Positions 1 through 627 of a stretch of 64,000 nt of DNA are shown in pieces. Position 1 is the first letter of the stretch; every line of letters starts with the position of its first letter. The position numbers and the translations under genes were made by a program. Source of the stretch: Lachnospiraceae bacterium MA2020 (GTDB taxonomy: Bacteria; Bacillota; Clostridia; Lachnospirales; Lachnospiraceae); contig JQKK01000006.1 of the NCBI GenBank assembly GCA_000746015.1, positions 1 to 64,000 on the forward strand. The letters are read 5' to 3'. Under the pieces are notes generated by a model, which saw only the letters and a program-made list of their open reading frames with translations, was not told the origin of the DNA and made no database searches.

Positions 1-447
1 CTCGTTCACATATAGTCGCTACACTATATGCAGTTCTCTGATGAACTTCCCTGCTTTTCAACAAGGCACAGACTATATCTTATCCATGGCGAAGTATTCA
101 TCTTCGCTTTAGGCGAAACCACTTCCACACGCTTGTGTGTACTCCCCTCACGAGGGATAGTCGTTGAACCTTCTCCTGTTCAGAGCTTGGCTGCTGATTA
201 CCTATTTTATAAACACTTAGGATTTAACCATATGCCATACAATTACTTTTTTCTGCTTTCGCCACTGTCACGCTTACGCCTGTTTCATCGTTACGTTGTA
301 GTGTAATTGTCTTTAAGGTATTCCAGCATTTCAGTTTCTTTGTTGGTGGATTTTAACCACTCTACATGCAGGTTTCCCTACATGCTAACTATTTTGTAAA
401 CGTTCGCTTACTCACGACCAAAGTCACGAGTGTGCGCTCACAATTTA
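1..447 (-). ncRNA. Group I self-splicing intron (3' end at or beyond window edge)
   Basis: Read on the minus strand, this stretch carries the conserved core of a group I intron. The R element (GGTTCAACGACTA, 158-170) and S element (AAGATATAGTC, 71-81) form the P7 helix through GACTA (158-162) and TAGTC (71-75). A Q-like element (AATCAGCAGCCAAGC) lies at 185-199 and a P-like element (GGGAAACCTGC) near 369-379. Between R and S are small hairpins resembling P7.1/P7.2 and P8, which suggests subgroup IA. A 9-bp stem with tandem G-U pairs at about 411-432 could be P2, and a hairpin at 9-30 could be a P9 element. No homing endonuclease ORF is present. The intron interrupts a PfkB-family gene, and an in-frame TAA stands at its first codon, so the kinase needs splicing. 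I could not assign the exact splice sites; the 5' site should be near 447-450. Confidence 0.85.
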
Positions 448-627
448 ATCAACTACACTTACAAAGGTAGGACGAAGCTCAACATTGGCAATATCCTCTG
501 CAACGTTTCTTGCTACACCTCCGTGAACCTGTATGACCCTTCCGACATTTCTGCCAGCCTCAATATACTGAGTAAGAGGATAACCCTTAATATCTACAAA
601 TGTTGCTCCAAAAACTACAATACCCAT
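448..627 (-). CDS. PfkB-family carbohydrate kinase, 5' exon only
   Basis: The first 60 residues of a ribokinase/PfkB-type sugar kinase start at the ATG at 627 with AAAGGAG just upstream. The N-terminal strand (MGIVVFGATFVDIKG), the GRNVGRV substrate loop and the GGVARNVAEDIA segment typical of this family are all visible. The reading frame stops at a TAA (445-447) directly after TFVSVVD, a place where family members normally continue with a DTG-type motif. The break coincides with the start of a group I intron, so this is an interrupted exon rather than a decayed gene. The second exon lies to the left of the window. The gene sits 37 bp after a tRNA operon terminator. The sugar substrate cannot be told from this fragment. 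Confidence 0.75.

Follow-up and report, generated by a model that had tools for sequence, protein, structure and literature searches.

A CdISt1-like IStron very probably occupies a PfkB-family kinase gene and an agmatine deiminase gene in Lachnospiraceae bacterium MA2020

Introduction

The window analyzed in this work is a stretch of 64,000 nucleotides of Lachnospiraceae bacterium MA2020 (contig JQKK01000006.1; C5:1-64000), whose base 1 is a contig end in a genome of 3.72 Mb assembled into 49 contigs. On the minus strand of this edge, the reading frame of a PfkB-family kinase runs into a group I intron, which raises the question of what kind of insert the kinase gene carries. The first-pass annotation proposed a group I intron standing by itself, with no homing endonuclease, considered a kinase remarkable as a host, and took the stop codon at the start of the intron as a hint of a possible switch. 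IStrons, in the description given in parts of the 2014 survey by Tourasse and co-workers (PMC4227781), are composites of a group I intron and an insertion sequence.

Results

The kinase frame stops at a group I intron

The 5' exon of the kinase gene (448..627, minus strand) is an open stretch of 60 codons that begins with MGIVVFGATF and ends with FVSVVD, its last bases being GTTGAT. It matches the Pfam PfkB profile weakly (positions 4-59, 16.1 bits against a cut-off of 25.8, E 0.0074), and all 60 residues align with the same-genus homologues at 73-85% identity (7 of the 7 found). The final five bases, TTGAT (448..452, minus strand), form the insertion motif directly 5' of the element, which is common to the second copy described below, and they are followed by TAA (445..447, minus strand), which is the opening codon of the intron and continues the kinase frame. 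Only 447 bases of the insert lie in the window, where it is cut off at the contig end (base 1).

These 447 bases (1..447, minus strand) were identified as the 5' part of an IStron, a group I (IA2-type) intron, from the Rfam family RF00028, the second copy, and an alignment with C. difficile and other loci. The catalytic core from P2 to P9 (49..389, minus strand) covers positions 1-253 of the RF00028 model with 64.4 bits (cut-off, 50; E 5e-14), and the end of contig C3 has the second match of the genome (64.2 bits), which is also above the cut-off of 50. A two-part core pattern with 26 fixed bases has a single match in the window and none in 100 shuffles. At Rfam's own cut-offs, the whole window contains this intron and two tRNAs (697-770 and 791-863, both on the minus strand) only; no riboswitch was found in it. 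The covariance search thus agrees with the first-pass annotation that the 60-codon frame stops exactly where a group I intron begins, with UAA as its first codon.

The internal guide strand UAGUUA (386..391, minus strand) forms a duplex with UGAU|UA that spans the 5' splice site and contains a U-1·G pair. Minimum-energy and centroid folds concur in a P1 helix with the U·G pair at this site, and folding of the 131 bases around the 5' junction resulted in an energy of -41.9, compared with a shuffle mean of -27.4 (z -4.43). The fold also places the left-end subterminal palindrome CTCGTGAC-TTTG-GTCGTGAG (411..430, minus strand) within the P1 stem of the RNA, above the splice-site pairing, which matches the description of group A IStrons in parts of the 2014 survey (PMC4227781); the same core is present at the right end of contigs C6 and C7. 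After P9.2, the sequence contains the motif GAACGA (2..7, minus strand), at which the IS part begins in IStrons according to the same parts of the survey (PMC4227781), and the stretch beyond this motif is unassembled. In the open reading frame list, no homing endonuclease frame of the LAGLIDADG, HNH, or GIY-YIG type was noticed in the 447 assembled intron bases.

An alignment of 10 introns was built from the two copies of this genome, one C. difficile element, and seven other loci. The eight outside rows are not a random sample, because they were chosen by a TnpB match in the same locus (in L128, TnpB lies upstream of the intron), and the Ruminococcus row is without about 110 columns. The consensus contains 104 predicted pairs; in 51 of them, at least one sequence has both bases changed and the pairing preserved. 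These counts come from a free fold, independent of the group I model and without a shuffle control.

A second copy and two right halves

The copies in C5 and C3 are identical at 448 of 452 bases, TTGAT counted, and the two contigs break off at exactly the same base, as expected because assembly breaks at repeats. The second copy lies in an agmatine deiminase gene that is unrelated to the kinase, and TTGAT precedes the element at both copies (2/2). Two of the four differences are in the left-end hairpin: one lies in its loop, and the other exchanges U-A and U·G, with pairing kept.

A search of the genome for the TnpB C-terminal domain identified seven places, four of which are cut off at contig ends. 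Among these, C6 begins and C7 ends with a C-terminal TnpB piece of 94 residues. The fragment corresponds to positions 270-360 of the 360 positions of NCBIfam IS200_TnpB (165.9 bits; whole-protein cut-off, 425) and passed the cut-off of guided_TnpB (109.4; cut-off, 100). As the former match begins at position 270 of 360, about 270 TnpB residues are unassembled. Both contigs have the same layout, namely, the last residues of TnpB, a stop codon, about 100 bases of right end closing in CACGTGACTTTAGTCATGTGAGGTTCAG, and then the host frame. At C6 and C7 alike, the right end closes in GAGGTTCAG with the 3' exon next, and the TCAG 3' end is present. The sequence GTGACTTTAGTCATG is common to these right ends and the left end of C3, and the window copy reads GTGACTTTGGTCGTG.

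The kinase 3' exon was found on C7, outside the window, and resumes where exon 1 stops (PfkB, profile 64-293, 107.6 bits). Similarly, the agmatine deiminase is divided into PAD_porph positions 1-122 in the C3 exon and 126-321 in the C6 exon. Both 3' exons are open and without frameshifts. Since the two left halves and the two right halves match by exon, C5 pairs with C7 and C3 pairs with C6; these joins are deduced from the exons and not from continuous sequence. The intron match and the two profile segments of the kinase (4-59 and 64-293) agree with the earlier proposal of a group I intron inside a PfkB kinase gene. The second exon that it expected 100-500 bp to the left exists, but on C7, given that the contig ends there. 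The kinase belongs to the PfkB family, with no firm assignment to a subfamily; the best NCBIfam model for its 3' exon, ribokinase, scored 91.6 bits, below the cut-off of 299.65. Downstream of the kinase lies a gene for a LicT-type antiterminator (352.1 bits; cut-off, 300).

Searches for the middle of the element with Pfam Y1_Tnp, OrfB_IS605, and right-end DNA found nothing that joins these contig ends. The N-terminal part of TnpB and any TnpA were not found among these matches, and the OrfB_IS605 and Y1_Tnp matches of the genome (five Y1) lie elsewhere. If the element were sized like that of C. difficile (1.9 kb) or that at the Ruminococcus locus L132 (about 2.1 kb), the missing middle would amount to about 1-1.3 kb; the element at L111 is longer, about 2.7 kb. 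The other two TnpB pieces cut off by contig ends, on C21 and C31, do not match the right end of this element and are not part of it.

As a separate observation, C21 and C31 (L024, L025) together with C24 and C28 (L037, L035) probably contain a second repeated IS200/IS605-type element. The signs of it are the C21 and C31 pieces of TnpB, each 180 residues long and cut at a contig end, and a pair of Y1 genes on C24 and C28, each of which ends 295 bases before the contig end, one being in two frames. RF00028 had no match at the ends of these four contigs.

The right end of the IStron folds into a palindrome hairpin and a stem enclosing a second hairpin, with a small third hairpin in the five rows, out of seven, that were cut long enough, and 14 of its 26 pairs changed on both sides somewhere. 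This fold is compatible with a TnpB guide-RNA scaffold; a search of two loci at E values of up to 0.1 matched no Rfam family to the right end.

Relatives possess uninterrupted genes

The genus sample comprised 48 genomes, including that of the host, of which 22 have a completeness of 90% or more and a contamination of no more than 5%. Matches to the 3' exons at E values of up to 1e-40 identified the kinase in 7 and the deiminase in 9 other genomes. All 16 homologues possess one open frame that is uninterrupted across the site (one kinase locus meets a contig end further on), and against each of them exons 1 and 2 of the host adjoin without loss or gain of a residue. The insertions show no target duplication. 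In the homologue L277, for example, residues 1-60 of kinase exon 1 correspond to residues 37-96 and residues 1-249 of exon 2 to residues 97-345. The kinase 3' exon shares 63-68% identity with its seven homologues.

The 447-base intron DNA was found in none of the 47 other genus genomes (E up to 1e-6). Within a family sample of 397 genomes, including that of the host, the intron was present at length in the host genome only, and two other genomes had partial core matches (69-73% over 135-181 bases).

Divergence of the first deiminase exon

Exon 1 of the deiminase (L002, 948-1442, on C3; exon 2, L020, 389-1063, on C6) contains extra residues that are absent from the genus homologues. It shares 42-47% identity with the six closest genus homologues, compared with 72-75% for exon 2, and these six share 65-77% in exon 1 among themselves (in the eight pairs reported). 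By the asymmetry between the two exons, the host ranks 1st of 36 rows, with 25 points, and L320 is close, with 22. Its end branch is 1.5 in the exon 1 tree (median, 0.35) and 0.23 in a tree built from the latter portion of exon 2.

One explanation would be that the IStron came with a foreign 5' exon through repair of a TnpB cut and co-conversion of the flank; if true, RNA-guided cutting would reshape host genes. We consider this very unlikely, and it was not upheld. Apart from the closeness of L320, the GC contents of exon 1 (0.444) and exon 2 (0.454) are alike, with no difference in base composition, and in nspC, upstream of the deiminase, the host is also more divergent than its relatives are from each other. 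An AU test on exon 1 did not reject the grouping of the host with its genus (p 0.25). No donor of exon 1 was seen among the matching family genomes (71/397, E up to 1e-25, own included), in which the top identity was 53%. The divergence remains a weak observation.

Survey of other loci

The two-part intron pattern was found in 104 stretches of a genome collection and at least 120 of a viral collection. BLAST at E values of up to 1e-5 matched 134 of 224 pattern loci to the intron and 14 to the TnpB end. Several loci deserve mention as side observations. L071 (CAJOMU010000030.1, from about 2064 down to 205, minus strand), labelled uncultured Synergistales, contains an intron, an open TnpB frame of 437 codons, ATTAT before the element (by eye), and a right end with a palindrome, GGAGGCTCAG. 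This locus resembles an IStron from outside the Firmicutes and Fusobacteria, the only phyla given in parts of the 2014 survey (PMC4227781); the Synergistales label comes from the record title alone. The main text of the survey does not contain the word Synergist. A literature search for IStron and Synergist returned no relevant paper among the matches listed. L062, also Synergistales, has an intron match and TnpB.

The record CAJOGN010000001.1 (258 kb, Lachnospiraceae Sheep_2_mag_58; L049, L061, L073, L075, L094, L113, and L114) has eleven intron-pattern matches among the matches listed and is possibly a large intron-rich phage. Two loci of Ileibacterium valens (L087 and L104) contain introns that are 76-78% identical to the window intron over 333-348 bases, adjoining open frames that by eye resemble genes for a type II topoisomerase A subunit and for a hydrolase.

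Discussion

Nature of the insert

The insert is very probably, at about 95%, a group A, CdISt1-like IStron, that is, a 5' group IA2 intron fused to an IS200/IS605-type element with tnpB, with copies in the PfkB kinase and agmatine deiminase genes whose messages splicing is predicted to restore. This reading is drawn from the sequence, in which both ends, both exon pairs, the frame, the uninterrupted relatives, the intron fold, and the TnpB C-terminus are seen. All the group A features that can be read here are present: TTGAT, the TCAG end, the TnpB C-terminus, palindromes at both ends, and an exact empty site. In parts of the 2014 survey (PMC4227781), group A IStrons insert after TTGAT, ATTAT, or TTTAT, end in TCAG, and have IS200/IS605-type ORFs, subterminal palindromes, and an IS part after GAACGA or a similar motif past P9.2. 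ORF A, the Y1 transposase, is often truncated or missing in known members of group A.

The contig-edge intron that seemed to be an orphan kinase switch is thereby reinterpreted as half of a repeated splicing transposon. In practical terms, where a group I intron follows TTGAT and reaches GAACGA at a contig end, the TnpB half should be sought. Partial IStron copies at scaffold ends do occur, with 115 recorded in the parts of the survey cited here (PMC4227781).

By analogy with its family, the element would have inserted after TTGAT by means of a Y1 (TnpA-type) transposase working at its palindromic ends. Its RNA would self-splice at TTGAU|UAA and UCAG|N and restore both host messages, in which case the kinase and the deiminase would probably be made from the spliced message. 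TnpB with the right-end RNA, for which the start of the 3' exon would serve as guide, may cut the empty site, so that the element is retained. A study from 2024 reportedly describes a conflict between IStron introns and TnpB guide RNAs. The in-frame UAA may keep ribosomes out of the intron, which is the explanation offered in parts of the 2014 survey for the UAA, UAG, or UGA first codon of most IStrons (PMC4227781).

Alternative explanations

The first-pass proposal of a stand-alone intron without a mobility gene, acting as a splicing switch for the kinase, accounts for two observations: within the window the insert shows an intron only, and the in-frame UAA ties full-length kinase to splicing, a dependence that the annotation stated correctly. 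However, the insert leads into a repeat whose far end consists of TnpB and a right end of the IS200/IS605 type, the same element is present in an unrelated gene, and no riboswitch accompanies it at Rfam's own cut-offs, so that this proposal is highly improbable. The report of "no homing endonuclease" arose because the contig breaks there; the element encodes TnpB. Nor is the kinase a remarkable host: in the survey text cited (PMC4227781, in part), IStrons follow a short motif and occupy genes of many different functions, 118 of 202 insertions being intragenic and 64 of these in frame. The UAA is no evidence of a switch either, because most IStrons start with a stop codon according to that text. 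A regulatory role for the kinase is no more than possible.

Mis-joined contigs or a contaminating intron, with a kinase gene that is really uninterrupted, would fit the four contig ends at which the repeat interrupts the assembly. Yet exon and intron are continuous inside C5 and C3, and each left-end exon continues exactly and in frame at one right end (2/2 pairs), which makes this explanation scarcely credible. Loss of splicing, with inactivation of both host genes, is less improbable than either of these and still unlikely. The middle of the element is missing and the copies differ at 4 of 452 positions, whereas the core, P1, and the splice-site pair are intact, the two differences in the left-end hairpin leave it paired, both 3' exons are open, and that of the kinase remains similar to its seven homologues. 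The preferred reading is thus the CdISt1-like IStron, which is an added example of a described kind of element and not a new kind of genetic switch.

Comparison with known elements

In the plasmid collection, the intron DNA has matches in 29 records, and 3 of these matches cover at least 80% of it. The best one is to a plasmid of C. difficile, with which the 447-base query shares 73.1% identity over 97% of its length. The element on this plasmid, of about 1.9 kb, has an annotated tnpB of 1.1 kb, a TTGAT|TAA start, and a GAGGTTCAG end. Its left-end palindrome, GCACACTCGTGACTTTAGTCATGAGT, equals that of the C3 copy, the window copy differing by two bases, and it has a GAACRA motif after P9.2 and the right end CATGNGAGGTTCAG. 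From species and features we infer that it is CdISt1, a name that the record does not carry. The phage collection contains 250 matching records, mostly to the core only, one of which covers at least 80%.

The element described here shares with CdISt1 of Clostridioides difficile (group A, IS200/IS605-type) the TTGAT target, the TAA start, the IA2 intron, and tnpB. It differs in its Lachnospiraceae host, in about 27% nucleotide divergence, in the kinase and agmatine deiminase as host genes, and in copy number, two compared with 9-24 for CdISt1 in parts of the 2014 survey (PMC4227781). To the known CdISt1-like IStrons it adds one from a genus of Lachnospiraceae, whose two insertions are clean and in frame and whose host genes have uninterrupted counterparts in sister species. 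The apparently complete IStron at L132, from a Ruminococcus metagenome, has the same left-end palindrome, the right end GAGGTTCAG, a TnpB C-terminus with 69% identity, and open frames for Y1 TnpA and TnpB. Unlike the present element, it has ATGAT before the insertion (by eye), an intron without about 110 alignment columns, and two N near the right end.

ISDra2/IS8301 of Deinococcus radiodurans has a TTGAT target, palindromic ends, and two ORFs as well, by its description in parts of the survey (PMC4227781) and not by sequence, but it is an IS without an intron. Group B IStrons (BcISt1, C. botulinum; IS607-type) are also composites of intron and tnpB, whereas their GG-ending sites and CGG end (PMC4227781, in part) are both absent from the element here. 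Stand-alone bacterial group I introns with homing endonucleases share the ribozyme fold and the in-frame stop codon at the start; in contrast, the assembled part of the present element shows no homing endonuclease, and the element combines an IS200/IS605-type mobility part with a loose 5-base target.
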